Positions 8,186 to 36,290 of a DNA stretch of 64,000 nucleotides are shown piece by piece. Source of the DNA: Sedimentitalea nanhaiensis DSM 24252 (GTDB lineage Bacteria > Pseudomonadota > Alphaproteobacteria > Rhodobacterales > Rhodobacteraceae); assembly GCF_000473225.1 (NCBI RefSeq), contig NZ_KI421509.1, positions 2,994,868 through 3,058,867 on the forward strand, in the 5' to 3' direction. The position numbers and the translations under genes are program-made. The stretch's first letter is position 1. Each line of letters starts with the position of its first letter. The notes under the pieces were generated by a model. That model ran no database searches, had not been told where the DNA came from, and saw nothing but the letters and a program-made list of their open reading frames with translations.

Positions 8186-8194
8186 CTCAAAGAT

Positions 8195-8219: not shown

Positions 8220-8318
8220 CTTCTCAGGGCTGATCCAGTGCGCCATGCGCCCCCCGGAACCACCGCCGGGGTCAGTTGGGATGTCCGGAACATACCTGTA
8301 GAAGATGGGTGAAACGGC

Positions 8319-9008
8319 TCAGGTCCAGACCCCTTCGGCGGCCTCGCGGATGGCACGTATGTTGCTGCCATAGGCGTCGGGGTGACTGACAGATCCCCCC
8401 TTGAACACCGCCGAACCGGCCACCAGGACATCCGCTCCGGCCTGTACCACCAGCGGCGCGGTGCTCGGGTCGACCCCGCCGTCGATCTCGATATGGATCG
8501 GGCGGTCACCGATCATGCCGCGCAGGGCGCGGATCTTGGCGGTCATGTCGATGAATTTTTGCCCGCCGAATCCGGGATTTACGGTCATCACGCAGATCAG
8601 GTCGACCATGTCCATCAACTCGGCCACCGCGCCGGCGGGCGTGCCCGGATTCAGCGCCACTCCCGCCTTGGCCCCAGCCCCACGGATCGCCTGCAAGGTG
8701 CGGTGGATATGCGGTCCGGCTTCTACATGCGCGGTAATCACATCCGCGCCCGCGTTGGCAAAGGCCTCGACATAGGGATCGACCGGCGCGATCATAAGGT
8801 GAACATCCATAACGCCCTGAACGTGTGGACGGATCGCGGCGCAGGTGGCTGGACCAAAGGTGATGTTGGGGACAAAATGCCCGTCCATCACATCTACATG
8901 CACCCAATCCGCCCCCTGGGCTTCGATGGCCTGGCATTCGGCCCCGAAATTGGCGAAATCGGCGGCCAGAATGGACGGGGCGATCTTGATCTTGCGGTCA
9001 AAGGACAT
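8319..9008 (-). CDS. rpe: ribulose-phosphate 3-epimerase
   Basis: 229 residues, the normal length. The TIM barrel is clear: KIAPSILAADFANFGAE, WVHVDVMDGHFVPNITFG (metal ligands), MTVNPGFGGQKFI and IHIEIDGGVDPSTAPLV. It interconverts ribulose 5-phosphate and xylulose 5-phosphate in the pentose phosphate and Calvin pathways. It is 72 bases downstream of the methyltransferase gene on the same strand, so it may be the last member of the long glycosyltransferase operon or have its own promoter in that gap. The start has TGAGG a few bases ahead. Confidence 0.97.
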   Translation of the reverse strand: MSFDRKIKIAPSILAADFANFGAECQAIEAQGADWVHVDVMDGHFVPNITFGPATCAAIRPHVQGVMDVHLMIAPVDPYVEAFANAGADVITAHVEAGPHIHRTLQAIRGAGAKAGVALNPGTPAGAVAELMDMVDLICVMTVNPGFGGQKFIDMTAKIRALRGMIGDRPIHIEIDGGVDPSTAPLVVQAGADVLVAGSAVFKGGSVSHPDAYGSNIRAIREAAEGVWT

Positions 9009-9080
9009 GGGGTACCTCAGGCTGAGTTTGTCGACATATACTGCGCCGGTGTGCGCGGCGGTAGGGGGCAGGCCGTCGCG

Positions 9081-9557
9081 TCACGCGCGGTAGAACAGAT
9101 AGCGCTCCGGTGCAATGGTGTCAGGACCGCAGATCTGTTGAAATCCGACCAGCGGCTGCCCCGAAACGATCAAACCGCCGGGCTGCATGACCCGGGCAAT
9201 CACCGGACTCAGCCGCGCCGCTTCGGCCACGTCTTCGGCCTTGATTCCACTGCCGAAATCGTAATGGGCCAAGGCGATCCGCGCGCGTAGACAATGCAGT
9301 TTTTCCAGCATCGGCCGCGCTTCGCCGGCCAGGAAATCCTGCTTTGGGGGAACACAGGACGGGTGACATTGCAGCACCCGGTCGATCACCCAGATGCGCC
9401 GGTCGGGCAGGATTTCGCGCAGATGATCATAGGTGCGCCCGTTGCCGAGCCCCAGGTCCAGCACATCGCCGGGCAGCCCGGCGATGTGCTGGGCGGCCCA
9501 GTTCAGCCCGTCGCGCTGCGCGGTAAAGCGGCGCAGCATGGAATCAAGTCGGCTCAT
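9081..9557 (-). CDS. small SAM-dependent methyltransferase (Methyltransf_17 family)
   Basis: 158 residues with a class I SAM-binding motif in LDLGLGNGRTYDHLREILP, an acidic strand end (RIWVIDR) and a later HYDFGSG loop. It has the short architecture of the Methyltransf_17 family, known mainly from Rhodobacterales and of unknown substrate. A clear paralogue lies at 25983-26480. The start overlaps the end of the deacetylase gene by 14 bases, so it is translated with the glycan operon; a role in modifying that glycan or its precursor is inference from position only. Confidence 0.75.
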   Translation of the reverse strand: MSRLDSMLRRFTAQRDGLNWAAQHIAGLPGDVLDLGLGNGRTYDHLREILPDRRIWVIDRVLQCHPSCVPPKQDFLAGEARPMLEKLHCLRARIALAHYDFGSGIKAEDVAEAARLSPVIARVMQPGGLIVSGQPLVGFQQICGPDTIAPERYLFYRA

Positions 9558-10311
9558 TCGTCTCTCCTGTGTCGACGGCGGTCCAGGGTTGACCCGGCCC
9601 GGCCAGCAGACGGGTCAGCAACGCCTCGGTAAAGGTCCAGATCGCTTGGTCATGAACCAGATGATGGGTCAGGATGCCATAGGGTTCGGTGGCATCCGCG
9701 CGCCCTTCGCGCCGGTCCGCCAGTTGCCGGGCGACCTGTGCGATCAGGACCCGCGGGTTGGCCAGACCCCGTCCCCCACGCCAGGCGATCGGGTCCAGAT
9801 GGGTATTGATCTGCGCCAACCCCGGTGCCGCCAGCGGGGCCGCGCGCGGGGTAAAGGTGGAAACCGCCCGAAACCCCAGCTCCGGGAGCTGGGGCAACAG
9901 ATTGTCGCTCACCCGGTTCCATGGCGGCACAAACATGGGCACCAGGCGAGGGCCGAACAAGGCGCGCAAACGCCGTAGCCCCTGTTGTGCGTCCATCCCA
10001 AGCGCCTGCATGGTGCGATCCGCGCCGAACTCGGCGTTCTTTTCGCCCTCGGGCGTGTGGCTGATATGGGCCCAGCCATGTACCACCGGGATCATCCCGA
10101 TTGGCAAAGCATCGGCCAGCGCATCCTGCGCATGGGCCGGAATGACCGCCAGATGGACCGCAATACCCAACCGGGCGGCCAGATCCGCCAGCCGGATCAG
10201 CGCCGGTGTCGGTGCAATTGCGTCATCGTCACGCCACCACAGCGGCAAGCTCAGCCCGGCCTGCGCCCATCGGTCCAGTTCACGATCCAGTTCGCTCCAG
10301 TCCGGTGTCAT
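9544..10311 (-). CDS. polysaccharide deacetylase-like protein
   Basis: 255 residues. The NodB-type fold is suggested by LPLWWRDDDAIAPTPAL (adjacent Asp residues at the metal/catalytic site), HLAVIPAH, the VHGWAHISHTPEGEKNAEF stretch giving a paired-His metal motif, and FVPPWNRVS, equivalent to the R-P-P-W motif 3. Such enzymes remove N- or O-acetyl groups from sugars. No signal peptide is visible, so it would act in the cytoplasm, unlike most peptidoglycan deacetylases. It overlaps the glycosyltransferase upstream by 4 bases and the methyltransferase downstream by 14. Confidence 0.8.
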   Translation of the reverse strand: MTPDWSELDRELDRWAQAGLSLPLWWRDDDAIAPTPALIRLADLAARLGIAVHLAVIPAHAQDALADALPIGMIPVVHGWAHISHTPEGEKNAEFGADRTMQALGMDAQQGLRRLRALFGPRLVPMFVPPWNRVSDNLLPQLPELGFRAVSTFTPRAAPLAAPGLAQINTHLDPIAWRGGRGLANPRVLIAQVARQLADRREGRADATEPYGILTHHLVHDQAIWTFTEALLTRLLAGPGQPWTAVDTGETNEPT

Positions 10312-11441
10312 ATACGTGCGCCCGCCATTTGGGTTGCGATCGTCACGGTCTGTGCCGCGCCATCCAGTTGCAGGGCCGCCCTGCCGCGGCGCGGGGCGCT
10401 CAGGACCTGCCGGACCGCATCACACAAGCGCTGCGGCGTCAATTCGCAAGTGCGCAGAGTCGCCATGCCCGGCAACCGGGCCAGCGACTGTGCCCGCAGG
10501 GTCTGTTCGACCTCGTTGCCGTCGTCAAACGGCACAAACACGGCTGGCGTGCCGGTCTGCAACAGATCCAGCGCGGTGTTATAGCCGCACATACTGACCG
10601 AGGCGGCGGCATGGTGCAGCATCTGCCGAAAGTCCGCGCGCGCGGGTTCGATCACCGCCGGGCTGCCGCTGGCCAGATCCGTGAGGCGCGCGCCGGGATT
10701 CTGGCCGCCGACCAACAACCGCCACCGCCGTTCGGGCATCAGGCGGGCCGCGTCGCCGGCACAGCGGAACAACTGGTCGCCAACCGGCCCGCCGCCCGCG
10801 CTGACCAGAACCTCGTCCGTCCCGGCGCGGTCCGGATGCGGCCCGGCGGCAGCGGGCGCGACATAGCCGGTATATATCAGCCGTGGCGCCAGCGTCGGGC
10901 TGACCGGCCAGCTGACCTCCAGTTTCGTGCCTTGCGGGTCGGCATGGACCAGCACCGCATCGTACCATTTGCGGACGAGATCGTCGGTTCGGGCGGCCTT
11001 GGCGGGGGTGGACGGCGGCGCAAGGATGTCGCGGACCGATGACAGGATCACCGGCGGCTGCGGCAGGCGTTTTGCCGTCTCCAGCAGGGCCAGGAATTCG
11101 TCGCGCAGCACACGGCGGCCAAAGGGGAAAAGCTCGGTGATCACCACGTCTGGTTTGAAATCGACAACGGCGCGACACAGCCCGTCGCGACGTGCGGTCA
11201 GCACCGCCGTGCCCGCGGGCTGCCCGGTTTGATCCATCAGCCGGGTAAAATCCACGCCGTCCGAGCTTAGCGACGGCAATTGCAAGAGCCTGACAGAGCC
11301 GAAATCCAGACCCGCAACAGGCATCCCGCCGCTGGTCAGAAGAACATCGTGACCGGCCAGGGCGAACGCGCGCGCCAGCATCAGGGCGCGGCGCAGATGG
11401 CCCGTGCCCAGCAGATGGGTGACAGCGATCATCACCCGCAT
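10308..11441 (-). CDS. glycosyltransferase, GT28/MurG-like (first of two)
   Basis: 377 residues from the ATG at 11441; the frame stays open farther upstream but only through the phosphatase gene. The N terminus MRVMIAVTHLLGTGHLRRAL carries the GTGHLRR loop of GT-B enzymes of the MurG/GT28 type, with VLVSAGGGPVGDQL opening the C-terminal domain and VSMCGYNTALDLLQTGTPAV as the nucleotide-sugar site. It resembles its neighbour at 14345-15556 (GLGHLRRSRA, VTPGGGGDGQAM, VSMGGYNTFCEVL), which suggests an old duplication within the operon. Donor and acceptor are unknown. It overlaps the phosphatase gene by 10 bases. Confidence 0.82.
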   Translation of the reverse strand: MRVMIAVTHLLGTGHLRRALMLARAFALAGHDVLLTSGGMPVAGLDFGSVRLLQLPSLSSDGVDFTRLMDQTGQPAGTAVLTARRDGLCRAVVDFKPDVVITELFPFGRRVLRDEFLALLETAKRLPQPPVILSSVRDILAPPSTPAKAARTDDLVRKWYDAVLVHADPQGTKLEVSWPVSPTLAPRLIYTGYVAPAAAGPHPDRAGTDEVLVSAGGGPVGDQLFRCAGDAARLMPERRWRLLVGGQNPGARLTDLASGSPAVIEPARADFRQMLHHAAASVSMCGYNTALDLLQTGTPAVFVPFDDGNEVEQTLRAQSLARLPGMATLRTCELTPQRLCDAVRQVLSAPRRGRAALQLDGAAQTVTIATQMAGARI

Positions 11442-12019
11442 GCGCGGCGCTCCAACCGGATTTGATCGGGTGCGGCCGTGACCTGTTCGCCCTCCAGATA
11501 CAGAACAAACAGCCGATTGCGTTTGATCCGAAACGGCGCCGGGCCGCGGAAATCCCAGCCATGCGCCCGCGCCAAAAGCACGCGCATCACGCCGATATGG
11601 CACACCGCTACCGCATCCTGCCGCAATCCGGCCAGCCAGGGTCGCAGCCGCGCATCCAGCTGCGCGGGACTTTCCCCGCCCGGCGCGCGATAGCCCCAGC
11701 CCCAATCCTCGATATGACGAAAGCCGGAGTCCGGTTGCGCCAACAGGTCAACGCCGCGCAAACCCTCCCAATCGCCCCAGCTCATCTCGGTCAGCTCGGG
11801 GGCCAGGCGAGGCGCGCGCCCGGCTACCAGATGCGCGGTTTCAGCCGCCCGCTTCAATGGGCTGGACCATAAATCGGCAGCCTCCCAATCGGGCGGCAGG
11901 CGCAATTCGCACAGCTCCGCGCGCGCAGCCCCATCCAGGGGGATGTCGCTGCTGCCCTGAATGCGGCCCGCGCGGTTCCATTCGGTATGACCGTGACGCA
12001 AGAGGGCGAGGCGGATCAT
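11432..12019 (-). CDS. histidine phosphatase family protein (phosphoglycerate-mutase-like)
   Basis: 195 residues from the ATG at 12019. The catalytic RHG motif is in LALLRHGHTEWNRAGRIQGS; the second Arg and acid are in SSPLKRAAETAHLVAG and LTEMSWGDWEGL; the second His is in VAVCHIGVMRVLLA. It is a small-molecule phosphatase of the cobC/GpmB type. Inside a glycosyltransferase operon it might dephosphorylate a sugar-phosphate intermediate, such as a glucosyl-3-phosphoglycerate-like compound (inference; other glycan pathways use this pairing). It overlaps both neighbours. Confidence 0.85.
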   Translation of the reverse strand: MIRLALLRHGHTEWNRAGRIQGSSDIPLDGAARAELCELRLPPDWEAADLWSSPLKRAAETAHLVAGRAPRLAPELTEMSWGDWEGLRGVDLLAQPDSGFRHIEDWGWGYRAPGGESPAQLDARLRPWLAGLRQDAVAVCHIGVMRVLLARAHGWDFRGPAPFRIKRNRLFVLYLEGEQVTAAPDQIRLERRACG

Positions 12020-13104
12020 GCGCGCCTCTCCAGCAGCGGGGCGACCCCTGCCCAAAAGGTGGTGCGCGCGGTGCCGATCAGGTGCTTTCTGGCCATCGTG
12101 CCGCGGGCCGTCGCGCCTTGGGCCTGGCGCAGATCCGGATCGGCGAGCAATTGATCGATCCGCTGCGCCAGGGCGGCTGGCCCGGCCTCGGGCGAAGGGT
12201 ACAGGCCCGGTGCCAGTATGTCGCGCACGCCGGGACGGTCCTGGGCCACCACCGGCAACCCGGCCGCCTGCGCTTCCAGATACACCATGCCGAATCCCTC
12301 GTTGACGCCGGGCCAGAAAAACAGCGCCGCGTTGCGATAGGCGCGGGCCATGTCCGATGCATCCAGTTGCCCCAGAAACCTCACCTGCGGGCCGAAGGGG
12401 GCCATCAGCGTCTCGATTTCCGCCCACATGGGGCCGTCCCCGGCGATGTTCAATTGCCAGCTGGATGCACCCAGTTGCGCCAGCGTGTCCGCGATCACAC
12501 GATAGCTGGCCATTTTGTCGCCGGCACGCATCATGCCCGCCGCCAGCATCCCGCGGCCCTCCGCGCCGCATTCGGCCGGTTCCGGCAGGTCGGCCCGGGG
12601 TAGAAACGGTGGCAGGTGGATCAGCCGCTGGCCCGGTGGGCGATGGCGGTCCAGCGTGATCAGGTCATGTGCGGTGAGATAGAAGACCAGATCGGCGGCA
12701 TCGGTTGCCGCCTCGGCGGCGGCGGCGAACCCGGCCCAGGGGCCGGTCAGACGCTTTTTGGCGCGGCTGGCCTCGATCTGCACATAGGGCAAGCCAAGGG
12801 CGGCGCAGATCGCCGGACCCAGCAAGTCGGGTGCTTTGTAATAGTTGTGATAGGTCACCCAGAGGGCAGGGCGGTCACGGGTCAATAGCGGGATCAGCCG
12901 GGCGATTTCGGCCTCGGCCGCCGCATGCAGAACGGCCTGCCGGGCGGGATCGCCCCGGTTATCGTGAACCTGAAGCTGCGAAACCGCATCGATGCGCACG
13001 TCGTCGGTGGCCATGGCCGTCAACAGCGCGCGGGCAAAGGCGCGGTCACCAGAGGGTACCGGGTGATCGGGCGGTTTCATCGGGGCATAAAAAGCCACCC
13101 GCAT
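12016..13104 (-). CDS. glycosyltransferase family 4-like protein
   Basis: 362 residues. A GT-B fold with an N-terminal acceptor domain (MRVAFYAPMKPPDHPVPSGD), a central SRAKKRLTGPWAGF stretch and the donor domain LNIAGDGPMWAEIETLM followed by FFWPGVNEGFGMVYLEAQA, the E-x7-E motif of retaining GT4 enzymes. It overlaps the phosphatase by 4 bases and shares one base with the upstream glycosyltransferase. The acceptor is unknown. The opening MKPPDHPVPSGDR is typical of an alphaproteobacterial subgroup found in this cluster. Confidence 0.85.
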   Translation of the reverse strand: MRVAFYAPMKPPDHPVPSGDRAFARALLTAMATDDVRIDAVSQLQVHDNRGDPARQAVLHAAAEAEIARLIPLLTRDRPALWVTYHNYYKAPDLLGPAICAALGLPYVQIEASRAKKRLTGPWAGFAAAAEAATDAADLVFYLTAHDLITLDRHRPPGQRLIHLPPFLPRADLPEPAECGAEGRGMLAAGMMRAGDKMASYRVIADTLAQLGASSWQLNIAGDGPMWAEIETLMAPFGPQVRFLGQLDASDMARAYRNAALFFWPGVNEGFGMVYLEAQAAGLPVVAQDRPGVRDILAPGLYPSPEAGPAALAQRIDQLLADPDLRQAQGATARGTMARKHLIGTARTTFWAGVAPLLERRA

Positions 13105-14348
13105 CAGCCGCTCCGCGCGCCATTCAGCATGGCGCTCAGGCGTGCGGACAGATGGTCGATGCCCGGCTGCATCACGAATTCGGCCCGCAGCCGGTGCAAT
13201 GCGGCCTCGGCCATGGCGGCAGTTCCGGCCGGATCCCGAGCCATCTCGGTCATCGCGCTTGCCAATGCGGCGGGGGTGTCGTCGGACAGCCGACCGTGCA
13301 CGCCGGTTTCGATAAATTCAGGGATCGCGGAAACGGCTGTGGACAGGATCGGCAGGCGCTGGCTGGCGGCCTCCATCAGCACATTGGGCAATCCGTCGCG
13401 ATCGCCATCCGACGCAACCCGGCTGGGCAGCACAAACAGATCGGTGGCACGCATGGCGGCGATCACCTCGGGCTGATCGCAGGCCCCGCGCCAAACGATG
13501 CGGTCGGCGATTGCGGCCTGTTGCGCCTGCTTCGCCAGGGCTTCTCCCAAAGGGCCGCCGCCAATATGGGTCCAGTTCCAGTCCAGCCCGTCCGGCAACA
13601 GGGCGAGCGCCGCAATCAGCCGGTCAAAGCCCTTTTTCTCGACCAGCCGCCCGACGGATAGCAGCCGCAGCGGATCGCTCGCATGACGCAGGGCGCGCTC
13701 CGGCGGATCGGGAAACCGCGACAGATCCAGCCCGTGATAAACCAGATCGATGCGTGCCGGGTCCGCCGCCAATCTGCGCAGCTGGCGCGCACCATAGGCG
13801 GTGCAGGTGGCCCCAAAGGCCGCACCGGTGCCATCGTCCGCCAGCTTTTCCGCGATTTCCCAATCCGGCGAGGTCCAGATGTCCTTGGCGTGGGCGGAAA
13901 ACCCCCAGGGCAGGCCGCGCATGATCGCTGCATAGCGCGCGACCGAGGCGGGCGTGTGCAGAAAATGCGCATACAACCCCTGTGTTCCGGGGGGCAGTTC
14001 GGTGGCCAGAACACACGCCTGACCAAAACGGCGAATGCGGTTCTTATCCTGATCGCGGGTCAGATCCTGCCGCCAGATCTCATAGGCGGCGGCATAGCCC
14101 GGAAGGCTGCGGGCTGCGGCGCGGGCACGCCAGACGCGGACGGGGTCCTGGTACAGGTATTCGGGCAGATAGCGCACCCGCGCCCGCAGGCAGTCATGCA
14201 AGGGATGGGTCTTGGTGTCGGTCGGATGGCGCAGCGACCAGATGTCAAACCGGTGCCCGGCGTCTTCCAGCGCCACCAGTTCCTGCGCGATAAAGGTCTC
14301 GGACAGCCGCGGCCAGCCCTTGACGACAACGGCCAGTGGTACGCTCAT
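13104..14348 (-). CDS. glycosyltransferase family 4 (colanic-acid type)
   Basis: 414 residues. VVVKGWPRLSETFIAQELVAL is the N-terminal signature of the WcaL/ExoL-like GT4 group, LLSVGRLVEKKGFDRLIAAL opens the donor domain, and FVLPSRVASDGDRDGLPNV leads into VLMEAASQRLPILST. Such enzymes usually add hexoses to lipid-linked or free oligosaccharides at the inner membrane. It is second in the operon and overlaps the first gene by four bases. Confidence 0.88.
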   Translation of the reverse strand: MSVPLAVVVKGWPRLSETFIAQELVALEDAGHRFDIWSLRHPTDTKTHPLHDCLRARVRYLPEYLYQDPVRVWRARAAARSLPGYAAAYEIWRQDLTRDQDKNRIRRFGQACVLATELPPGTQGLYAHFLHTPASVARYAAIMRGLPWGFSAHAKDIWTSPDWEIAEKLADDGTGAAFGATCTAYGARQLRRLAADPARIDLVYHGLDLSRFPDPPERALRHASDPLRLLSVGRLVEKKGFDRLIAALALLPDGLDWNWTHIGGGPLGEALAKQAQQAAIADRIVWRGACDQPEVIAAMRATDLFVLPSRVASDGDRDGLPNVLMEAASQRLPILSTAVSAIPEFIETGVHGRLSDDTPAALASAMTEMARDPAGTAAMAEAALHRLRAEFVMQPGIDHLSARLSAMLNGARSG

Positions 14349-15556
14349 TCGGCTGCCTGCTCGGCTTGTTTCGCCAACAAGGCCGCGACCCTTCGGGTGA
14401 CATAGTCCAGCCCGTCCAGCAGCCCTTCACCAAAGGCCTGGCTGGGCAGCGGTTGACCCGGCAGCGCGCGGATGGCGCGGATCATCGCCTGCACCGTCAT
14501 GCCGTCGCGGGTTTCGTCCAGCATCCGCACCAGGCCCAGACCCTCGGCACGGCTGGCGCGGATATATTGTTCCAGCCGGGGCACGGTGCGCGGTACGATC
14601 ACCGCGCGCTTGTCAAAGGACAGCACCTCGCAAAACGTGTTGTAGCCGCCCATGCTGACCACCCCATGGGCTCCGGCGAACAGGGTCTCGATCTGCGATT
14701 CAAACCCCACCGCCGTCACCCGCCCGTTCAGCTTGGCCACCCTGGTTTCGAAATCCACACGGGTGTCGCCCGACAGGAACGGGCCATAGACCAGGATCGC
14801 GCGCGGGTTCAGATCCGGGTCCTGTTCGTAGGCCGACAGCACCAGATCGACCATCGCCTGCCCATCGCCGCCACCGCCGGGGGTGACCAGGATATAGGGC
14901 TGTTTTGGCGGGGCGGCCGTGCTGCCGACACTGCGGCGCAGATAGCCGGTCCAGTGCATGCGCGCCCTGACTGCGGCGCTCAGATTCAGCCCGGCGGTCG
15001 GATCGTAGATCGAATGGAGGCCATAGATCCATAATTCGTCATAAAATGTCTCGGTGGCGGCAATGCCCCCCTTGCGGTCCCATTCGACGGCCAGCACCTC
15101 GGGCTCGTCCAGCACATCACGCAGCCCCAGCACCATCTTGGCGCGCCCCTGATCGGCCAACAGATCCAGCGTCGGCAAGAGTTCGCCGCGAAAGCCGGTC
15201 GGCTCTTTGTCCACGATCAGAATATCGGGATCGTATTGTTCGGCCGTGGCCTTGATCAGCCCGGCCCGCAGGTCGGTGGTCTGGTCGATGTCCAGACCCA
15301 TGGTCTGGGATTCATAGCTGCCGTCGCGCAGCTTGGTCACGCCGGGCAGCCGCACATGGTCTACCCGTGGCGGAAAGGTAAACCGACCGGCCACCGGCGA
15401 TCCGGTGAGGATCAGCGCCGAGGCTTCGGGATTGGCGCGTGTGATGGCCTCTGCCAGCGCCCGCGATCGGCGCAGGTGCCCCAGGCCAAAGGTGTCGTGG
15501 CTGTACAGCATGATCCGTGGCGCACGTCCGGGCGGTGTCGGGGGCCTTGGCATCAT
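14345..15556 (-). CDS. glycosyltransferase, GT28/MurG-like (second of two; first gene of operon)
   Basis: About 403 residues from the ATG at 15556 (MMPRPPTPPGRAPRIMLYSH). A longer reading to 15661 is open but its extra residues look non-coding, and GGAG sits about 10 bases before the chosen start. Motifs: HDTFGLGHLRRSRALAEAI, ILVTPGGGGDGQAMVDL, GVVSMGGYNTFCEVLSF and VIVPRTVPRLEQYIRA. It probably transfers a sugar from a nucleotide-sugar donor. It is the promoter-proximal gene of the seven-gene overlapping block; the 347-base gap upstream should hold the promoter. Confidence 0.82.
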   Translation of the reverse strand: MMPRPPTPPGRAPRIMLYSHDTFGLGHLRRSRALAEAITRANPEASALILTGSPVAGRFTFPPRVDHVRLPGVTKLRDGSYESQTMGLDIDQTTDLRAGLIKATAEQYDPDILIVDKEPTGFRGELLPTLDLLADQGRAKMVLGLRDVLDEPEVLAVEWDRKGGIAATETFYDELWIYGLHSIYDPTAGLNLSAAVRARMHWTGYLRRSVGSTAAPPKQPYILVTPGGGGDGQAMVDLVLSAYEQDPDLNPRAILVYGPFLSGDTRVDFETRVAKLNGRVTAVGFESQIETLFAGAHGVVSMGGYNTFCEVLSFDKRAVIVPRTVPRLEQYIRASRAEGLGLVRMLDETRDGMTVQAMIRAIRALPGQPLPSQAFGEGLLDGLDYVTRRVAALLAKQAEQAAE

Positions 15557-15903: not shown

Positions 15904-18249
15904 ATGTGGCAATTTCTGGTTCGCGCCGCGCTGACGGCTCTGCTGACGGCTCTGTTTGCACTTTCGGCCAACGCACAGCTGCTGCCGGGGATCGGAGGCA
16001 CTGCCAAGTCCGAGACCCCGGCCGGGGACAGTGCGCTGGCCGATGCCATCCGGCAAGCAGCGGACAGCGGTGTCAACGTGATCGTGCTGGACGGCACCGG
16101 CAAGCTGGTCGCTGCGGCCACCCCGGCAGCGAAGGAGGCTGTGGATGCACCCAAAGGCGCGATGGAGCACGCTTCGCCCCTGATGCGCGCCCAGACCCAG
16201 GTCAAGAAATTCCGAGAGACTCTGTCCGAGCGTCTGGATGCCTTGCCCAATTCACTGTCCGAGGTTGCGTTTATTCTGCGCGCCACCAGTCCGGACGGGC
16301 GGATCGCGACCTATGCCGAGGTTCTGTTCTGGACGCTTGCGTTGTTCTTTGTGGCCAGAATCGTGGTCCGGATGACGTATGGCATGCATTTCGCCAAGGG
16401 ACAGATGATCGCGCGATCACTGGAAAACCCGCAAGGCTATCGCCAGAAGATGCCGCTCCTGGTATTCCGGTTCTTTCTGGGGGTCGGGGGCTCGGTATTG
16501 ACAATGTCCCTGGCCTATGTGGCCGGATACCTGATCTTTGATCCGGTCGATGATTCATCGATCGAATTGACCATCGCGGCGATCTATCTGGCGATTTTCC
16601 TGTCCTGGACGGTGTCGGACCTGTGGCGGATGATTCTGTCTCCCTTTCTGACCCAATACCGCATTCCGGTCCTGTCGGATCGCGATGCCAAGCGGTTGTA
16701 TCACTGGGCGTGGATTCTGGGCACGTTCAGTATCACTTCGACCATTCTCGCCACGTGGATCGCCGATTTTGGCCTGAACTATAACGTTTATGCCATTCTT
16801 TACGGGCTGTTGTCGCTGGTCGAGGCGGTGGGGAACATCTTGATGGTCCTGTTCAACACGGGCGTGATTTCCAATGCGATCCGGGGCGGCAAATCCGCCC
16901 AGGACGTTGTCTGGCTGACACGGTTCGTGTCATTTTCCTGGGCACCGCTGATGATCGGGTACATCATCTTTGGCTGGCTGGAACTGGCCTTTGATCTGGT
17001 GCTGGAACTCGAAACATCGGTGCCGATGATTGCCGGTGCCTACGTGGTGTTTCTGTCGATCGTGATTGTCTATGGCGCGATCAACTACGTGATCGAACGC
17101 TTCTTTGACCGAAGCCGTTCGGTTGAGCGGTTGAACCAGGAACTGGCCGCCGCAGAAGCTGCGGAAAGCGACGACGACATGCCGCCGGCTCCACGCCATG
17201 CGCTTATGACCTACGAGGCCCTGGCCCGCCGCGTTGCCGGCATACTGGCCTTTGTCGCGGGGGCCTATGCCATGTTGCGGGTGTGGGACCCGGAAAACCA
17301 GGTGCTGCCGAATTCCGTGTTCGGCCGGACCCTCGATGTCATCACCATTCTGTTCATCGGCTATGTCGTCTATCACTTCTTCCGCATCTGGATCGACAGC
17401 AAGATCGCCGAAGAAACCGTCGAGCAAGAAGAAGGTGAACTTGGCGACGAGGGGGGCGCCAACAGTGCCAGCCGCCTGGCTACGCTGCTGCCGCTGTTTC
17501 GCGGTGCCATTCTGGCCGTGGTCGTGGTGTCGATCGGGCTGATCGCTCTGCTGGAACTGGGTATCAACGTCAGTCCGCTGTTCGCCGGTGCCGGTGTGGT
17601 CGGTCTGGCCGTGGGGTTCGGGGCTCAGACCCTGGTGCGCGATATTTTCTCGGGTGCGTTTTTTCTGGTCGACGATGCCTTTCGCAAGGGCGAATATATC
17701 GACATTGGCGACGTAAAGGGCACCGTCGAGAAAATCTCGGTGCGCTCGTTCCAGCTGCGGCACCACCTGGGCGCGCTGAACACGATCCCGTTTGGCGAAA
17801 TCAAGGTTCTGACCAACTATTCCCGCGACTGGGTGATCATGAAACTTCCCCTGCGGGTGACCTATGACACCGATGTGGAAAAGGTGCGCAAGCTGATCAA
17901 GAAGCTTGGCCAGGAGCTGTTGACCGACCCGGTGATCGGCGACAATTTCATCCAGCCGCTGAAGAGCCAGGGCGTGATCGAAATGCAGGACAGCGCCATG
18001 ATCATTCGGGTCAAGTTCATGACAAAGCCGGGCGATCAGTGGTTGGTACGCAAAAAGGTCTATGAAGATATCCGCGCGCTGTTCGCCCGCGAGGGGATCC
18101 ATTTCGCCCATCGCGAGGTCACGGTGCGGCTGGCGGATGCGGCTGCGGACGACCTGACCGAGGAACAGAAAAAGGCCGTGACCGGTGCGGTCCAGGGCGT
18201 GATCGACGATGAGTTCGACGGGCCGGACAACAACGGGCCGGATCGCTAG
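15904..18249 (+). CDS. large mechanosensitive channel of the MscS family
   Basis: 781 residues. A signal peptide (MWQFLVRAALTALLTALFALSANA) precedes a periplasmic region, then about ten hydrophobic segments from residue 140. The MscS pore and beta domain lie at about 545-680: GAGVVGLAVGFGAQTLVRDI (Gly/Ala-packed TM3), FSGAFFLVDDAFRKGEYIDI and the NTIPFGEIKVLTNYSRDW stretch. The cytoplasmic alpha/beta domain follows to about 760. It resembles the MscK/YbdG-type enlarged paralogues and opens on membrane tension to release solutes in hypo-osmotic shock. Single-gene unit, transcribed away from the glycan operon. Confidence 0.93.
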   Translation: MWQFLVRAALTALLTALFALSANAQLLPGIGGTAKSETPAGDSALADAIRQAADSGVNVIVLDGTGKLVAAATPAAKEAVDAPKGAMEHASPLMRAQTQVKKFRETLSERLDALPNSLSEVAFILRATSPDGRIATYAEVLFWTLALFFVARIVVRMTYGMHFAKGQMIARSLENPQGYRQKMPLLVFRFFLGVGGSVLTMSLAYVAGYLIFDPVDDSSIELTIAAIYLAIFLSWTVSDLWRMILSPFLTQYRIPVLSDRDAKRLYHWAWILGTFSITSTILATWIADFGLNYNVYAILYGLLSLVEAVGNILMVLFNTGVISNAIRGGKSAQDVVWLTRFVSFSWAPLMIGYIIFGWLELAFDLVLELETSVPMIAGAYVVFLSIVIVYGAINYVIERFFDRSRSVERLNQELAAAEAAESDDDMPPAPRHALMTYEALARRVAGILAFVAGAYAMLRVWDPENQVLPNSVFGRTLDVITILFIGYVVYHFFRIWIDSKIAEETVEQEEGELGDEGGANSASRLATLLPLFRGAILAVVVVSIGLIALLELGINVSPLFAGAGVVGLAVGFGAQTLVRDIFSGAFFLVDDAFRKGEYIDIGDVKGTVEKISVRSFQLRHHLGALNTIPFGEIKVLTNYSRDWVIMKLPLRVTYDTDVEKVRKLIKKLGQELLTDPVIGDNFIQPLKSQGVIEMQDSAMIIRVKFMTKPGDQWLVRKKVYEDIRALFAREGIHFAHREVTVRLADAAADDLTEEQKKAVTGAVQGVIDDEFDGPDNNGPDR

Positions 18250-19533: not shown

Positions 19534-19860
19534 TCAGTCCCGATCCGGGCAGCCGAACGGGACAAAGGTACTGGCCATCCCTTCGTTCATCGACAGGATG
19601 GTCATCAGGTTCGCCAACGTGACATCGCCGTCGGTTCTGGCGCAGATGCGGGTGGCTGCGGGACAGCCGTTATCGACAAAATCCTGATGCCGGGCCATGA
19701 AACCGTCGCTTGTGCCCTCCGGGGGCTGGGTGTCCAATACCTGTTGCCACGCATCGCGGTACAACGCGCATTTACGTACGCTCCAGCTGTCCGCGGCGAC
19801 AGAGGACGCGCCCAGCCCGCAGCTCAGTACCAACACCAACAGGCGCGGATCAGTCCGCAT
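19534..19860 (-). CDS. small secreted cysteine-containing protein, last gene of the peptide ABC operon
   Basis: 108 residues. The signal peptide MRTDPRLLVLVLSCGLGASSVAA-D is followed by a mature region of about 84 residues with four Cys (RKCALYR, DNGCP, RICAR, FGCPDRD), enough for two disulfides. The start overlaps the end of the permease gene by 11 bases, implying co-translation. Function unknown; the coupling suggests an accessory to the transporter or simple hitch-hiking. A segment TLANLMTILSMNEGMA recalls Rap1a/Tai-type small periplasmic proteins, but I do not claim that family. Confidence 0.7.
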   Translation of the reverse strand: MRTDPRLLVLVLSCGLGASSVAADSWSVRKCALYRDAWQQVLDTQPPEGTSDGFMARHQDFVDNGCPAATRICARTDGDVTLANLMTILSMNEGMASTFVPFGCPDRD

Positions 19861-21004
19861 AGGGGTCCAGCGAATCCCGCAGCCCGTCGCCCAGAAAGTT
19901 GAAGGCCAGCACGATCACGATGATCGGCAGCATCGGAATGGCCGTCCAGGGATAGATCTCGATGCTGGCCAGGTTCTGCGCATCGTTCAGCATAACCCCC
20001 CAGCTGACCGCCGGGGCCCGCAGGCCCAGCCCCAGAAACGAAAGCGCGGTTTCCCCCAGAATCATCGCCGGAATCGACAGGGTGGCGCTGGCGATCAGGT
20101 GGCTCATGAAATTCGGCAACAGATGCCGTCGGATCACCCGCCCGGAACTGGCCCCCATCATCTCGGCGGCGCGTACGTATTCCTCTTCGCGCAGGGACAG
20201 GAACTTGGCTCGCACCGCCCGCGCCAGCCCCGGCCAGTCCAATACACCCAGTATGATCGAGATGATGAAGAACACCGCCACCGGCCCCCAGTTGGACGGC
20301 ACCGCTGCGGACAGGGCCAGCCACAGGGGCAATTCCGGCAAAGAGCGCAGAATTTCTATCACACGGTTGATCACCCAATCGATCTTGCCCCCGAAATAGC
20401 CTGCGATGCTGCCAAATCCGATGCCCAGCACAAAGGACACGGAAATGCCGATCAGCCCAACGGTCAGCGACAGTTGGGCGCCATACAGGATACGCGAGAA
20501 CACATCGCGACCCAGCCGATCCGACCCCCACAGAAAGATCGTCGCCCCTTCGGGGGCGCAGAACAGATGAACATCGGTCTCGATCAGTCCGGCCAGCGGA
20601 TAGCTTTCGCCCTGGCAGAAGAACTTAAGCGGCAGCGGCGTGGTGGTGTCGGTCACGAATTTCCACTGAAAGGTCTCCAGATCCGCCTCGGCCACGGTGG
20701 GATAGACAAAAGGCCCGATAAAGTCGCCCTCGTGATACCACTGCACCGATTGCGGCGGCGCAAAGAGGTAATCGGAGTCGCGTTCATTGGCGGTATAGGG
20801 CGCGATGAACCCGACGAAGGGCAGTATCATATAACACAGCAACAGGAAGATGCCCGACACCAGCCCCAGCCTGTGCCTGCGGAACTTGCGCCAGACCAGC
20901 AGCCAGGCGGGGGCGTCCAGATCCTGCCGCTCCAGTGTCTGGATATTGGCGGTTGCGTCGAACGGGGTATCGTCGACATAGCGGCCATCGGGCAGGTTCG
21001 TCAT
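19850..21004 (-). CDS. peptide-type ABC transporter permease (OppC/YejE-like)
   Basis: 384 residues. The N-terminal cytoplasmic stretch and first TM (FRRHRLGLVSGIFLLLCYMI) are typical of OppC/DppC/YejE. A long periplasmic loop (about 75-180) precedes GSDRLGRDVFSRILYGAQLS, and five more TM segments follow. The EAA loop reads REEEYVRAAEMMGASSGRVI, which docks on the ATPase. It overlaps the OppB-like gene by four bases. Confidence 0.92.
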   Translation of the reverse strand: MTNLPDGRYVDDTPFDATANIQTLERQDLDAPAWLLVWRKFRRHRLGLVSGIFLLLCYMILPFVGFIAPYTANERDSDYLFAPPQSVQWYHEGDFIGPFVYPTVAEADLETFQWKFVTDTTTPLPLKFFCQGESYPLAGLIETDVHLFCAPEGATIFLWGSDRLGRDVFSRILYGAQLSLTVGLIGISVSFVLGIGFGSIAGYFGGKIDWVINRVIEILRSLPELPLWLALSAAVPSNWGPVAVFFIISIILGVLDWPGLARAVRAKFLSLREEEYVRAAEMMGASSGRVIRRHLLPNFMSHLIASATLSIPAMILGETALSFLGLGLRAPAVSWGVMLNDAQNLASIEIYPWTAIPMLPIIVIVLAFNFLGDGLRDSLDPYAD

Positions 21005-22029
21005 GCCTCACGCCCCTCATAGCGGATGCGCGGATCCAGCAGCACCAGCAATACGTCCGAGATCATCGTGCCCATCAGCGTCAGCAGCGCCACAAACATC
21101 AGAACGAACCCGGCCAGAAACTGATCCTGCGTCTTCAGCGCGGTCAGCAGGGTCGGGCCGATGGTCTGTAGCCCCAGCACCACCGACACCAGGACCGAGC
21201 CCGAGATCATCGAGGGCAGCAGGTTGCCGATATCGGCCACAAACGGGTTGAACGCCATGCGCAGCGGATATTTGATCAGCATGCGCGGCGGGCTCATGCC
21301 CTTGGCGATGGCCGTTTCCACATAGGGTTTGCCCAGCTCGTCCAGCAGGTTGGCGCGCAACCGCTGCATCATCGCCGCCGCCCCCGAGGTGCCGATCACG
21401 AAGGTTGGTACGATCAGGTGGATCAGGATCGATTTCACCTTGTCCCAACTCATCGGCAGGCCTTCGTATTGCGGATCCATCAGCCCGCCGATCGGCAGAT
21501 CGAAATATTTGTGCCCGTAATAGAACAGGATCAGCGCCAACAGAAAATTCGGTGTCGCCAGCCCCAGATAGCCGACAAACGCCGATGTGTAATCGACCCA
21601 GGTTTTGGACTTTGCCGCCGCCAGCACCCCCAGGGGCAGGGCGATCAGATAGACGAACAGCACGGCGGCCAGATTGACCAGCACAGTCAGCCAAAGCGAT
21701 TCACCGACGATTTCCGCCACCGGGCGGTCGAACTCAAAGGACCAGCCGAAATCGCCCTGGATCAGCCCGGAAAACCCCTGCGGTCCCGGAATGAAGCCGA
21801 TCCAGATCAGGTATTGCTGATACAGCGGCCGGTCCAGCGCATATTCCGCCCGCAGGAACTCGGCCTTGGCCACCCCGGCGGACTGACCGCTGGCCCGCAA
21901 CTCGCTGATCTGGTTGGACAGGTAATCGCCGGGCGGCAGGTTGATGATCAGAAACACCAGTGCCGACACCACCAGCAGTGTCAGCAACATGGTTCCGAAC
22001 CGGTAAACCGCATAGCGCAGTATCGCCAT
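21001..22029 (-). CDS. peptide-type ABC transporter permease (OppB/YejB-like)
   Basis: 342 residues, six predicted TM segments. The N terminus YAVYRFGTMLLTLLVVSALV and INLPPGDYLSNQI are typical of OppB/YejB. The EAA loop is LGKPYVETAIAKGMSPPRM, and the end SDVLLVLLDPRIRYEGRE is the normal C terminus of this permease class. It shares one base with the binding-protein stop (TGATG-type coupling) and forms the channel with the OppC-like permease. Confidence 0.93.
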   Translation of the reverse strand: MAILRYAVYRFGTMLLTLLVVSALVFLIINLPPGDYLSNQISELRASGQSAGVAKAEFLRAEYALDRPLYQQYLIWIGFIPGPQGFSGLIQGDFGWSFEFDRPVAEIVGESLWLTVLVNLAAVLFVYLIALPLGVLAAAKSKTWVDYTSAFVGYLGLATPNFLLALILFYYGHKYFDLPIGGLMDPQYEGLPMSWDKVKSILIHLIVPTFVIGTSGAAAMMQRLRANLLDELGKPYVETAIAKGMSPPRMLIKYPLRMAFNPFVADIGNLLPSMISGSVLVSVVLGLQTIGPTLLTALKTQDQFLAGFVLMFVALLTLMGTMISDVLLVLLDPRIRYEGREA

Positions 22030-23987
22030 CAGTCGCTACCGTTGGGATCGAAATAGAATTCGTCGATCCGGTGAATGCCGAAATGCGCGCCCGGATCCCA
22101 GGCCCACAACGCCTGTTCCGGCACGTTGCGCAGGGCCTTGTTCACCACCACCGGTTGCGGGGCTTCGGCCAGGGTGCCGATGGCAAAGACCTGATCTGCA
22201 TGGATCGCCAGCATCTCGGTCCAGATCGCGCTGCGCTGTTCGGTGGTGGTTGCCATCTCCCAGTCATGCGCAAGTTCCATCAGTCTGATCGCCTCGGGCA
22301 TGTCGGGCGGTTCGCCTGCGGCACCGTTGGTCTGGTAATACTGGCCCCACTTCGGCCAGGCAAAGAATTCCTGTTGGCGCGGGGCGACATAATCGGGCGA
22401 GGTATAGGCCTGCGGGATGCCGTTGTCCCAGCCGTACCAGACCGCCGCCATGCTGGAACCGGCATAGACCCGGTTGCGCAGGATGTCGCGATCCAGCGGG
22501 CGCATCACCAGTTTGACGCCGATATTGCGCCAGTCGTCGGTGATAATCTGCAGGGCGTTCTCGACTTCTTGCCGCTCGCCCGCGGTTTCGATCACGATCT
22601 CCATCGGGCGGCCATCGGGCAACAGGCGGATGCCATCCGGGCCGCGCCGGTCCAGACCGGCCTCGTCCAGCAGGCTGTTGGCGGTGTCCGGGTCCAGCGT
22701 TGCCCAGGCGTTGCGGTTGGCCTCTGTGAAGAACGGGCTTTGGGGTAAAACCGCCATCGCGCCGGGCTTTGCCAGTTTGAAATACAGCGCCTTGTTGATT
22801 GTATCGCGGTCGATGGCCAGGCTGAGTGCACGGCGCACCCTTACATCGCGCAGAACCGCGCGCCAGGCGTCGTCCTCATAGTTCAGGTTGGGATAGATCG
22901 CGATCTGGCTCGCCACCGCGTTGCCCCAAAGATAGGTCTTGTAATTGCCACCGTCCGCCTCGCCCTTGCGCAGGATCGAGATATCGCGGAAATCCAGCCC
23001 ACGCGCCTGCAGATCGGCCTCTCCGGCATTGGACTTGGCGGCAATCAGCCCGGCACTGACGATCTCCATCTCGACAATGTCGATATAAGGCAGCTGCACC
23101 CCGTTGGGGTCGACGCGGTGGAAATACGGGTTGCGCACAAAGTTATAGCGGATTTTCTTGCCCGAGCTGGCATTGATCCAAGGTTGCAGTGTCGGCAGCC
23201 GGTGATTGTCGAACTTGTACATGTTGTCGAGCTTGTTGTGCAGCGCGGCCCAGCTCTTGACGCGGGCGTCCTCGACTTCGGCGGCCAGCTCGGCGGAGTC
23301 GGCGGAATCCGCATGGAATTTCTTCAGGAAATGCGCGGGGCGATAGATAAACGGGGGGCGGGCCAGGGCAAGGCTGGCCAGAAAGTTCGGATTGGGATTG
23401 TCCCAGGCAAAGACCACCGTGGTTTCGTCGGGGAAGGTCACGGTGGGCATCTGCCCTTCGACGCGCAGGAAATCGGGCGGGCCTGCCGGGCTGAGCAGTT
23501 TGTTGTTGGCGATGTTTTTCCACCAGTATTCGAAATCCGCCGAGGTGAACGGCGCGCCGTCTGACCACCGATGTCCGGGGCGCAGGCGCAGGGTGAACAC
23601 CTTGTCCTGATCGGATTCGAAATCCAACAGCAGGTCCGGTACCAACTGGTAATTATGGTCGTATCCGACCAGCCGGGCATAGCCATAAACCACCATCTGG
23701 CGGATGTCCTTGCTGCGGCTGACCATGGTGTGCAGCGTGCCGCCCTGCACACCCGGCGTGCGGCCCCGGCCTTCCAGATCGACGACAAGCGGTGAGGTGG
23801 GGATGCGTTCGGCCACCGGGGGCAGATCGCCCCGCTCGACCTCCTGCAGCCAGAAGGAGCTTTCCTGCAAGGGCGGCAGCGGCGGCGCGGCCAGGGCCGG
23901 TGACAAGGCCGGTGACAAGGCTGGTGAAAGGGCGGCCAGGGCGGCCAGCGGCGTGGCCAGCAGAAAACGGCGGAAACGATCAAACAT
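22029..23987 (-). CDS. periplasmic substrate-binding protein of a peptide-type ABC transporter (SBP_bac_5)
   Basis: 652 residues, longer than OppA (about 540) but normal for the YejA-like branch. The signal peptide [20 protein letters not shown] is extended by an ALSP repeat before cleavage near ALAAPP. The family body includes RPGHRWSDGAPFTSADFEYW, LRDVRVRRALSLAIDRDTIN and a C-terminal WDPGAHFGIHRIDEF. It binds peptides or similar ligands in the periplasm; members of this clade also bind oligosaccharides or antibiotics such as microcin C, so the ligand is open. It overlaps the ATPase gene by 8 bases. Confidence 0.92.
   Translation of the reverse strand: MFDRFRRFLLATPLAALAALSPALSPALSPALAAPPLPPLQESSFWLQEVERGDLPPVAERIPTSPLVVDLEGRGRTPGVQGGTLHTMVSRSKDIRQMVVYGYARLVGYDHNYQLVPDLLLDFESDQDKVFTLRLRPGHRWSDGAPFTSADFEYWWKNIANNKLLSPAGPPDFLRVEGQMPTVTFPDETTVVFAWDNPNPNFLASLALARPPFIYRPAHFLKKFHADSADSAELAAEVEDARVKSWAALHNKLDNMYKFDNHRLPTLQPWINASSGKKIRYNFVRNPYFHRVDPNGVQLPYIDIVEMEIVSAGLIAAKSNAGEADLQARGLDFRDISILRKGEADGGNYKTYLWGNAVASQIAIYPNLNYEDDAWRAVLRDVRVRRALSLAIDRDTINKALYFKLAKPGAMAVLPQSPFFTEANRNAWATLDPDTANSLLDEAGLDRRGPDGIRLLPDGRPMEIVIETAGERQEVENALQIITDDWRNIGVKLVMRPLDRDILRNRVYAGSSMAAVWYGWDNGIPQAYTSPDYVAPRQQEFFAWPKWGQYYQTNGAAGEPPDMPEAIRLMELAHDWEMATTTEQRSAIWTEMLAIHADQVFAIGTLAEAPQPVVVNKALRNVPEQALWAWDPGAHFGIHRIDEFYFDPNGSD
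23895..23930 (-). repeat. 12-base tandem repeat in the signal-peptide coding region
   Basis: Three consecutive copies of GGCCGGTGACAA (23895-23906, 23907-23918, and a third with three changes at 23919-23930). On the coding strand each unit encodes A-L-S-P, giving ALSPALSPALSPALA in the signal peptide of the binding protein. Slippage would change the hydrophobic length in steps of four residues without breaking the frame. Confidence 0.85.
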
Positions 23988-25752: not shown

Positions 25753-25982
25753 CGGCGCAGTTCCGTATGGCCGTAAGTCAGCAGCATGTTGTACGTGAGG
25801 TCCCCCATGTCTTGCCGGCAGTTTCACTTGGCCTTTGCCCCATAGTCAAACCAATTTCCCATTTGTTCGCGATGTTGCGCCAAATTCTCCTGTTGCGGGC
25901 GGGTCTTGGCCCTACACATCCCGGCGGATATTTGGCATGACGGGCGGGCGGGCACGGGGCCCGGTCAAACCGGAGGTTTTTT

Positions 25983-26480
25983 ATGTCCAGCCGTCTCGAT
26001 CTGTTCATTGATCGCATGGTGTCCCAGCGCGCCTGCCTGGACTATGCCATTTCCGAAACCGCCGGCATGGGCGGGCCGATCTACGAGTTGGGGCTGGGCA
26101 ACGGGCGCACCTATCACCACATCCGCAATCGGGTGACCGGGCGCGATATCCTGGTGTTCGAGCGCGCCGTGGCCAGCCACCCCGACAGCACCCCGCCTCC
26201 GGAGCTGACGGTGCTGGGCGAGGTCACTGACACCCTGCCAGCGACATTGGCGCAAAGGGGCGCGGTGGCCAGCCTGATTCATGCAGATCTGGGGGGGCAC
26301 AACCGGGCCAAGAACGATGCTTTTGCGCGCCTGATTTCGCCACTGGTCGAACCGCTGCTTGCGCCCGGCGGGCTGATGGTCTCCAGCGACCGGATGTATT
26401 TCGACGCGCTTGAGGAACTGCCCCTGCCAACGGGGGCGGTGCCGGAACGCTGTTTTGTCTATCGCAGACCGGCCGGTTGA
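25983..26480 (+). CDS. small SAM-dependent methyltransferase (Methyltransf_17 family), paralogue of 9081-9557
   Basis: 165 residues. Motif I reads IYELGLGNGRTYHHIRNRV, nearly the same as in the gene at 9081-9557; the acidic strand is ILVFERAVASHPDS, and HADLGGHNR and PGGLMVSSDR follow at matching positions. Start ATG at 25983 lies 8 bases after GGAGG (25970-25974). The family is small and of unknown substrate. It is 27 bases before the MaoC-phosphotransacylase gene and may share its transcript. It is not in a glycan context, which argues against a purely glycan role for the family. Confidence 0.78.
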   Translation: MSSRLDLFIDRMVSQRACLDYAISETAGMGGPIYELGLGNGRTYHHIRNRVTGRDILVFERAVASHPDSTPPPELTVLGEVTDTLPATLAQRGAVASLIHADLGGHNRAKNDAFARLISPLVEPLLAPGGLMVSSDRMYFDALEELPLPTGAVPERCFVYRRPAG

Positions 26481-26507
26481 CCCGGACGGACCATATCGCA
26501 GCAAGTC

Positions 26508-36127: not shown

Positions 36128-36290
36128 TTAAGCCTCCCGTCCGTACTATGACTGTCAGCTTAGGGGTTTCCCGCCAAAGCTGCAATCCTTGCGGGATCCG
36201 GTGGCCAGAGATCGCCGGGCGGAATGATGCCGGTCATTAATCGTTTGCCTGACGATAGGAACGGTTGCTAGGTTTGGACTGGATTTGGTG

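Follow-up and report, generated by a model that had tools for sequence, protein, structure and literature searches.

Seven overlapping glycosyltransferase, deacetylase and phosphatase genes of Sedimentitalea nanhaiensis as the probable assembly arm of a class-wide glycan assembly-and-transport system

What do seven tightly packed genes encoding four glycosyltransferases (GTs), a histidine phosphatase, a deacetylase and a methyltransferase make together? The question is raised by a gene run in Sedimentitalea nanhaiensis DSM 24252, lying in a stretch of 64,000 nucleotides that was analysed as a whole and is called the window here (C4:2994868-3058867 of the 4.95-Mb genome G000). The seven genes probably form the assembly part of a glycan assembly-and-transport system conserved among alphaproteobacteria, and its product would be a glycan or glycolipid that is acidic and partly de-N-acetylated. 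The four GTs, the intact histidine phosphatase, the CE4-fold deacetylase and the S-adenosylmethionine (SAM) methyltransferase are linked by gene order and co-occurrence to an ATP-binding cassette (ABC) protein and an Opp-type transporter. The component families are known. The novelty lies in the gene combination, in an ATPase-degenerate ABC protein with a part binding cyclic nucleotides (cyclic nucleoside monophosphates, cNMP), and in an importer built into the locus.

The run occupies positions 9081-15556 of the minus strand, with neighbouring genes overlapping by 4, 1, 4, 10, 4 and 14 bp. Open reading frame (ORF) coordinates and the sequence both confirm this layout as first described. The products may be synthesised in a fixed ratio, as the initial annotation proposed from the overlaps. 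From first gene to last, the genes are referred to as GT28a, GT4a, GT4b, HP (the phosphatase), GT28b, DAC (the deacetylase) and MT17 (the methyltransferase). The start codon of GT28a is uncertain, its ORF opening at 15661. The initial annotation began the region at 8319 and so took in rpe (PF00834), which lies 72 bp from the run and outside the seven. Its family make-up, comprising two GT28, two GT4, a histidine phosphatase and a Methyltransf_17 protein, agrees with Pfam, and the deacetylase follows from a predicted CE4/NodB fold. The Pfam and NCBIfam scans name families only, as pathway equivalog cut-offs are unmet by all seven genes.

Gene order is conserved throughout the class. Loci were read by tblastn over surroundings of up to 20 kb, and "next" and "before" refer to mapped families. 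The 146 loci counted include seven plasmid records found through GT4a; the rest were found through DAC, which makes DAC presence a matter of construction, and one search kept the best 80 of 574 confirmed matches. Two sets, Rhodobacterales-type and other, are our own grouping from sampling and record titles. Order counts leave out the window's own locus (L061) and loci without GT4a (13/109 Rhodobacterales-type and 3/37 other), specifically second copies, contig ends and DAC without the run. On this basis, the order GT28a-GT4a-GT4b-HP-GT28b-DAC is present in all 96 Rhodobacterales-type loci and in 26 of the 34 others, and the counts without identical GT4a proteins are 95/95 and 26/34 distinct loci. 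Such retention goes beyond chance. MT17 closes the run directly after DAC in 80/96 Rhodobacterales-type loci; it is present in 19/34 others, mostly divergent and several kb off where seen. The initial annotation proposed such a neighbourhood comparison and held that an order confined to this strain would count against its reading. The order is class-wide, so it reaches far beyond this strain.

The genes are widespread within the class and rare outside it. DAC is found in 56/196 genomes of the order and 84/289 of the class (E<=1e-3), and GT28a in 57/196 (E<=1e-100) and 93/289 (E<=1e-30), respectively. A phylum sample yields GT28a in 24/299 genomes, 22 of the same class and the other two at 34-37% identity. 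Annotated plasmid records carrying the locus come from Azospirillum, Ruegeria sp. TM1040, Sulfitobacter indolifex, Rhizobium leguminosarum, R. etli and Sinorhizobium meliloti. The alignments comprise A1 with 28 sequences (27/54 listed plus the window's), A2 with 43, and A3 with 40 (39/73 listed plus the window's).

Assembly and transport genes also occur together. The 289 class genomes contain DAC in 84, GT28a in 93, the ABC protein in 97 and the Opp-type solute-binding protein OppA in 91, the last being 93 minus two genomes (G250, G424) with only a paralogue of about 30%. All four markers are present in 78 genomes, any of them in 101 and none in 188. It is mainly because of this largely all-or-none co-occurrence that assembly and transport are treated as one system.

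The deacetylase was recognized through its predicted structure. DAC has no Pfam match at E<=1e-3, and its profile has no solved relative at E<=1. Its AlphaFold2 model (predicted local distance difference test, pLDDT, 94.5) has members of the CE4 superfamily as top structural matches. The best Foldseek match is ArnD (8t0j, E 8e-7), and VIA-align gives Z 17.7 for HP0310 (3qbu; root-mean-square deviation, rmsd, 3.6; 222 aligned), 17.6 for 3rxz and 15.9 for ArnD (rmsd 3.5, 211 aligned). Residues D28-D30, H78, H82, R133 and H216 are invariant in 43/43 sequences, and in 28/28 of a smaller alignment. The conserved Asp, the His-x3-His and the later Arg and His are the CE4 motif residues. DAC is a CE4/NodB-fold deacetylase with conserved motif residues on the evidence of its model, and its activity is predicted. 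A signal peptide was said to be missing, and by eye the N-terminus is indeed not hydrophobic (MTPDWSELDRELDRW). As for HP, the catalytic residues R8, H9, R57, E78 and H141 are identical in 125/125 sequences and G10 in 117/125; against alpha-ribazole phosphatase CobC (TIGR03162) it scores 90.6 bits, below the cut-off of 162.9. Four GTs, an intact HP and a DAC in which no signal peptide is evident support the glycan or glycolipid pathway that the initial annotation proposed, and its interpretation overall is partly supported.

A second DAC paralogue (38-47%) lies beside a GNAT acetyltransferase gene in L104, L105, L107-L111 and L204 (L204:1247-2867), and the two are possibly an acetylation/deacetylation pair. 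The pair adjoins the Opp cassette of the main locus in L105 and L204, and may belong to the locus there. These second DAC copies were set aside.

The glycosyltransferases are placed in families, and their scores fall far from named pathways. GT4a reaches 115 bits against NCBIfam EpsE (E 4e-33), the cut-off being 400, and the GT4 scores fall well short of every equivalog cut-off set for EpsE, WcaL and TuaC. The cut-offs of MshA (462.5) and BshA (273.7) are likewise unmet, by GT4b with 39.0 and 35.8 bits and by GT4a with 48.1 and 39.7. GT28b scores 19 bits against the MurG equivalog TIGR01133, which requires 250.25. The AlphaFold2 model of GT28a (pLDDT 84.9) has a GT-B fold, closest to 2iya (Z 26.5, rmsd 3.6, 342 aligned), CalG1 (Z 26.3) and GtfD (Z 26.0). 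These nearest folds are antibiotic and plant-type GTs, MshA and BshA structures are also among the matches, and the modelled fold leaves the acceptor unnamed. A sequence search of solved structures returned zero matches for GT28a (E<=1) and GT28b (E<=0.1), and 3iht as the sole relative of MT17 at E<=0.01.

The transporter genes surround the run (Table 1). In the window, going upstream from the run, the Opp-type cassette (19850-25827) comes after 4.3 kb and the ABC gene after 20.7 kb. Outside the Rhodobacterales, the first mapped gene behind DAC, or behind that of the small conserved protein X163, encodes the double ATPase OppDF in 26/34 loci, and the cassette order is OppDF-OppA-OppB-OppC, often behind X163. 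Opp permeases are seen in 72/96 Rhodobacterales-type and 33/34 other loci, the 20-kb stretches cutting the cassette off in some. The ABC membrane protein is present in 29/34 non-Rhodobacterales loci and a cNMP-binding protein in 27/34, mostly divergent from GT28a. The initial annotation had found no export or nucleotide-sugar genes. This stands for the seven genes, but not for the wider locus, which includes the Opp-type transporter, the MsbA-like ABC protein and, in relatives, a nucleotide-sugar dehydrogenase. X163 itself (L090:11092-11583 and relatives) has zero Pfam or NCBIfam matches; in many loci outside the Rhodobacterales it separates DAC from OppDF, and it is not seen in Rhodobacterales layouts.

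Table 1. Positions of the seven-gene run and of neighbouring features, numbered from the first letter of the window
Feature	Position	Strand	Assignment	Match
GT28a	14345..15556	-	GT-B glycosyltransferase (GT28/GT1-like), first gene of the run	PF04101 E 5e-5
GT4a	13104..14348	-	Family 4 glycosyltransferase, EpsE/WcaL-like (below family cut-offs)	PF00534 E 8e-25
GT4b	12016..13104	-	Second family 4 glycosyltransferase	PF00534 E 2e-22
HP	11432..12019	-	Histidine phosphatase, branch 1	PF00300 E 5e-35
GT28b	10308..11441	-	Second GT28/MurG-like glycosyltransferase	PF04101 E 5e-8
DAC	9544..10311	-	CE4/NodB-type deacetylase by predicted fold and motif residues; signal peptide not evident	
MT17	9081..9557	-	Methyltransf_17 SAM methyltransferase	PF12692 E 8e-73
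rpe	8319-9008			PF00834 E 4e-76
MscS	15904..18249	+	MscS-type mechanosensitive channel, divergent from GT28a	PF00924 E 4e-14
OppC	19850..21004	-	OppC-type permease	NCBIfam Opp4C E 2e-78, 263 bits vs cut-off 350
OppB	21001..22029	-	OppB-type permease	NCBIfam Opp4B E 1e-59, 202 bits vs cut-off 450
OppA	22029..23987	-	OppA-type solute-binding protein	PF00496
OppDF	23980..25827	-	OppDF-type double ATPase	PF00005, two stretches
Second Methyltransf_17 protein	25983..26480	+	Divergent from transporter cassette	PF12692 E 3e-66
ABC protein	36285..39353	+	MsbA-like ABC membrane protein, degenerate ATPase domain, C-terminal cyclic-nucleotide-binding domain	PF00664 E 2e-18, PF00027 E 7e-15

The solute-binding protein offers a hint at the ligand. 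OppA scores 85.7 bits against the Opp4A equivalog, the cut-off of which is 650. Its closest solved relatives are 5ipw (E 5e-75) and SPH1118 (E 7e-65, about 590 residues), with the peptide-binding DppA at 1e-9. SPH1118 is a pectin-binding protein that binds oligogalacturonate and serves pectin assimilation, and 5ipw is described as the Thermotoga maritima OppA, without a peptide complex (PMC9314435). The W594 site is aromatic in 37/37 OppA relatives and R466 is R in 33/37, one of the 37 (L161) matching at 29% and being probably a paralogue. OppA as a putative oligosaccharide or acidic-sugar binder is a family-level hint, weakly supported by these likenesses. Pectin-site residues were dropped as an OppA diagnostic, the R438 site being unconserved and R466 common to 5ipw.

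The ABC protein has an exporter fold, has lost its ATPase motifs, and has gained a cyclic-nucleotide-binding domain or partner. The window copy has no PF00005 match at E<=1e-3; its nearest NCBIfam family is MsbA (TIGR02203), at E 4e-35 and 121 bits against a cut-off of 602, and it is 49% identical to the DAC-linked S. indolifex copy. An intact Walker A is absent from 32/32 aligned copies, including the window's, as the Walker A lysine never stands before S or T. A pattern search for GxxxxGK[ST] after residue 330 returned 0/31 relatives, and the alignment shows none in the window copy. The LSGGQ signature is altered, LSAGQ in L084 coming nearest to it; most copies have another residue in place of the Walker B aspartate, which L084, L100 and L200 retain. 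As a control, the linked OppDF proteins have two canonical Walker A motifs in 36/36, at least two SGG signatures in 11/36 and two Walker B matches in 7/36. The phosphate-binding cassette of cNMP domains, GE...R, is present in 25/27 separate cNMP-binding proteins and in the fused domain of the window copy (GELGLIRNEPR). The strict pattern is met by 1/11 other long ABC copies; five inspected C-termini read G[DE]L...R, four with GD. The transport role of the ABC protein is a predicted one. A large insert lies between the Q-loop and signature regions of the ABC copies (the window's, L084, L090 and others aligned), and in L084 it carries, by eye, repeated [DE]N[IL]LFG-like segments.

The further neighbours differ between lineages. 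The MscS gene lies upstream of and antisense to the GTs in 94/96 Rhodobacterales-type loci and in 0/34 others in that orientation; in the S. meliloti record such a gene points the opposite way. In 31/96 Rhodobacterales-type loci, the mapped gene preceding GT28a encodes a nucleotide-sugar dehydrogenase, and the one of this type that was scanned, from S. indolifex, is nearest to TviB at 459 bits, below the cut-off of 592. No dehydrogenase adjoins GT28a in the window; a relative on contig C1 of the same genome is 40% identical to the Sulfitobacter type and, where it matches locally, 64% identical to the dehydrogenase queries used for mapping. Besides its MscS gene, the S. meliloti record has a polysaccharide lyase (PF14099), DUF3095, a nucleotide cyclase and a dehydrogenase, and in strain 1021 the locus is on pSymB at about 820.4-846 kb.

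In S. meliloti 1021, the matches to the cyclase gene and to the ABC gene are each split into two segments that differ in frame (L219:16468-17813, 29724-32433), and these genes may be broken or contain sequence errors; S. meliloti Ak57 (L205) has one annotated cyclase gene at the corresponding place. Rhizobial copies (L205:5126-6328, 8084-9433; L202, L207) are flanked by DUF3095 and by a gene with an adenylate/guanylate cyclase domain, which fits control of the ABC protein by cyclic nucleotides. In many Rhodobacterales loci, a CoA-transferase family III gene stands between OppC and MscS (e.g., L125, L127, L132; also L203:8557-9912), with zero matches seen in the first 32 kb of the window. On the plus strand by the Opp cassette of the window, 25983-30931 encodes the second Methyltransf_17 protein (36% identical to MT17), an enoyl-CoA hydratase/phosphate acyltransferase fusion, an acetate/propionate kinase, a glutathione S-transferase and a thiolase. 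These genes resemble a set for acyl-CoA or fermentation metabolism and seem to have no connection with the glycan locus.

Taken as one pathway, the proteins would work as follows. The GTs would build a short acidic glycan or glycolipid, containing uronate or amino-uronate, on the cytoplasmic side. DAC would free an amino group on a cytoplasmic intermediate, analogous to ArnD, an aminosugar deformylase which acts on a lipid-linked sugar at the cytoplasmic side. HP may dephosphorylate a donor, a primer or an intermediate. Cyclic nucleotides would control the ABC protein as it carries the product over the inner membrane, and the Opp-type transporter would recapture or sense fragments of the exported product. 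An acidic sugar is suggested because of the dehydrogenase before GT28a (31/96), the S. meliloti polysaccharide lyase and the likeness of OppA to SPH1118. The substrate, step order, transport direction and cNMP control are those that we infer. A bolder version, which we regard as rather doubtful, is a class-wide make-export-retrieve loop for a single surface sugar polymer or glycolipid, in which export would be gated by a cyclic nucleotide through the ATPase-less ABC protein, acting as a regulated scramblase or channel or with an ABC-half partner, with a dedicated importer taking back or sensing the exported glycan and with the rhizobial cyclases closing the control loop.

Several observations weigh against the reading of assembly and transport as one pathway. 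The pairwise Fisher p values for the four markers, 1e-53 to 5e-65, ignore shared ancestry, and 23 of the 101 genomes with any marker have some but not all four. DAC went undetected in 11 of these 23 although they carry GT28a, and several of the 23 are assembled incompletely (for example, G258 68%, G265 82%, G331 83% and G447 63% complete). The R. leguminosarum and R. etli records have a reduced set of GT28a, GT4a and GT28b, with HP, DAC and GT4b not found beside the GTs. HP is not found beside the GTs in S. meliloti either, nor in the Rhizobiaceae layouts L202, L205, L207 and L219. Neither a lipid-carrier enzyme nor a polymerase was recognised among the shared genes. Since an intact Walker A is missing from all 32 ABC copies, ATP-driven export by this protein alone is doubtful. 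A second copy in the genome (C4:2229074-2232145) is 55% identical to the linked S. indolifex form, closer than the window's at 49%, and the window copy is only a candidate for the pathway role. Additionally, the R438 of SPH1118 is R in just 5/37 OppA relatives, R466 is also R in 5ipw, and this best OppA match is labelled an oligopeptide-binding protein.

Other explanations use the same genes differently. An intracellular glycoside, either a compatible solute or a thiol-like cofactor, would arise if a GT4 glycosylated a phosphorylated acceptor, HP dephosphorylated it and DAC freed the amine, the transporters being incidental. Mycothiol synthesis follows this order with a GT4, a phosphatase and a cytoplasmic deacetylase (MshA-phosphatase-MshB), and glucosylglycerate synthesis is comparable. 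MshA and BshA are among the weak GT4 matches and their structures among the GT28a fold matches, and the MscS channel adjoins the run in nearly all Rhodobacterales-type loci (94/96). However, four GTs exceed the need of such a molecule, and this soluble product is unlikely because the MshA and BshA cut-offs are missed by far and two transporters strongly co-occur with the run. Scavenging would instead have the Opp-type transporter import foreign acidic oligosaccharides, which the GTs and DAC rebuild into a storage or surface sugar. The position of OppDF after DAC or X163 (26/34 non-Rhodobacterales loci), the pectin assimilation ascribed to SPH1118 in PMC9314435, and the lyase in the S. meliloti locus all fit. 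So does a GH5/CBM60 protein that Azospirillum sp. B510 encodes some 5 kb downstream from DAC, with a similarly annotated gene there in A. lipoferum. The GH5/CBM60 protein and the lyase could serve retrieval of the cell's own glycan as well as scavenging of a foreign one. Yet GTs need activated donors and not free oligosaccharides, and a glycoside hydrolase is not annotated beside the run in the Ruegeria, Sulfitobacter, R. leguminosarum, R. etli and S. meliloti records, other layouts being untested for one; we give scavenging little credence.

A glycosylated natural product is less probable still. Here the GT28-type enzymes would be macrolide-type GTs decorating a small scaffold, secreted by the ABC protein and retaken by the Opp-type transporter in a metallophore-like manner. 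The best structural relatives of GT28a include antibiotic GTs (2iya, CalG1, GtfD), and nickel and opine solute-binding families are among the weak OppA matches. GT-B folds are alike whatever the acceptor, however; no polyketide synthase or nonribosomal peptide synthetase is annotated in the stretches inspected of the six plasmid records, and class-wide conservation would be unusual for natural-product clusters. It is just as improbable that a known capsule, lipopolysaccharide-core or exopolysaccharide pathway went unrecognised; a place in such a pathway with an established product would, by the initial annotation, count against its reading. In S. meliloti, the only place looked at, two genes some 5-7 kb upstream of the locus encode an EPS_sugtrans-type sugar-phosphate transferase (about 5 kb away) and, judged by eye, an OPX-like export protein, and SMb20804/20805, whose distance from the locus is not established, affect the Kdo capsule according to PMC5539429. 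The EpsE, WcaL and TuaC cut-offs are widely missed, though, and the annotation of the six plasmid records places no Wzx/Wzy or KpsMT pair within the run; no search aimed at such pairs was made, and the locus layouts display the mapped query families only. No paper assigning a product to the locus was found in the open-licence PubMed Central (PMC) literature, subscription literature being outside the scope, which agrees with the earlier statement that no characterised pathway with this gene set was known to its author.

Three candidates from the literature were considered and not retained. The R. leguminosarum desiccation operon RL2975-RL2977, mentioned at second hand in PMC5596212, has no link to the locus that we found. 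SMb20813, called an msbA homologue in PMC10945364, was not placed on the locus map. The polysaccharide cluster nodP2-smb21248 of the Clr/cAMP regulon bears other tags (PMC5498481), and its overlap with the locus is not shown.

A glycan assembly-and-transport system thus remains our preferred explanation. About one third of the sampled class genomes carry these genes (GT28a, 93/289) and, if they form one pathway, it defines an envelope glycan common to plant symbionts and marine roseobacters. MsbA-type flippases and ABC-dependent glycan export resemble it, with GTs and an ABC membrane protein in one locus and MsbA as the best NCBIfam match of the window copy. The ABC protein here differs from them in its Walker A (GK[ST] in 0/32), altered signature, large insert, cNMP-binding part and score (121 of 602 bits). 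ArnD, the best Foldseek match, shares with DAC the CE4 fold and a cytoplasmic-side location, predicted in the case of DAC, but identity is 14-16%, DAC is linked to HP and four GTs, and several other CE4 members score equal or higher Z. SPH1118 of Sphingomonas sp. A1, a cluster C solute-binding protein, resembles OppA over about 590 residues (E 7e-65) and in the aromatic W594 site (37/37), whereas the R438 site is R in 5/37 and OppA is linked here to biosynthesis genes. Mycothiol and bacillithiol synthesis (BshA-BshB) share the logic of a GT4, a phosphatase and a deacetylase. They differ in that their equivalog cut-offs are unmet, that extra GTs and transporters are present here, and that MshB and BshB are deacetylases of the PIG-L/LmbE type, whereas DAC has a predicted CE4 fold.

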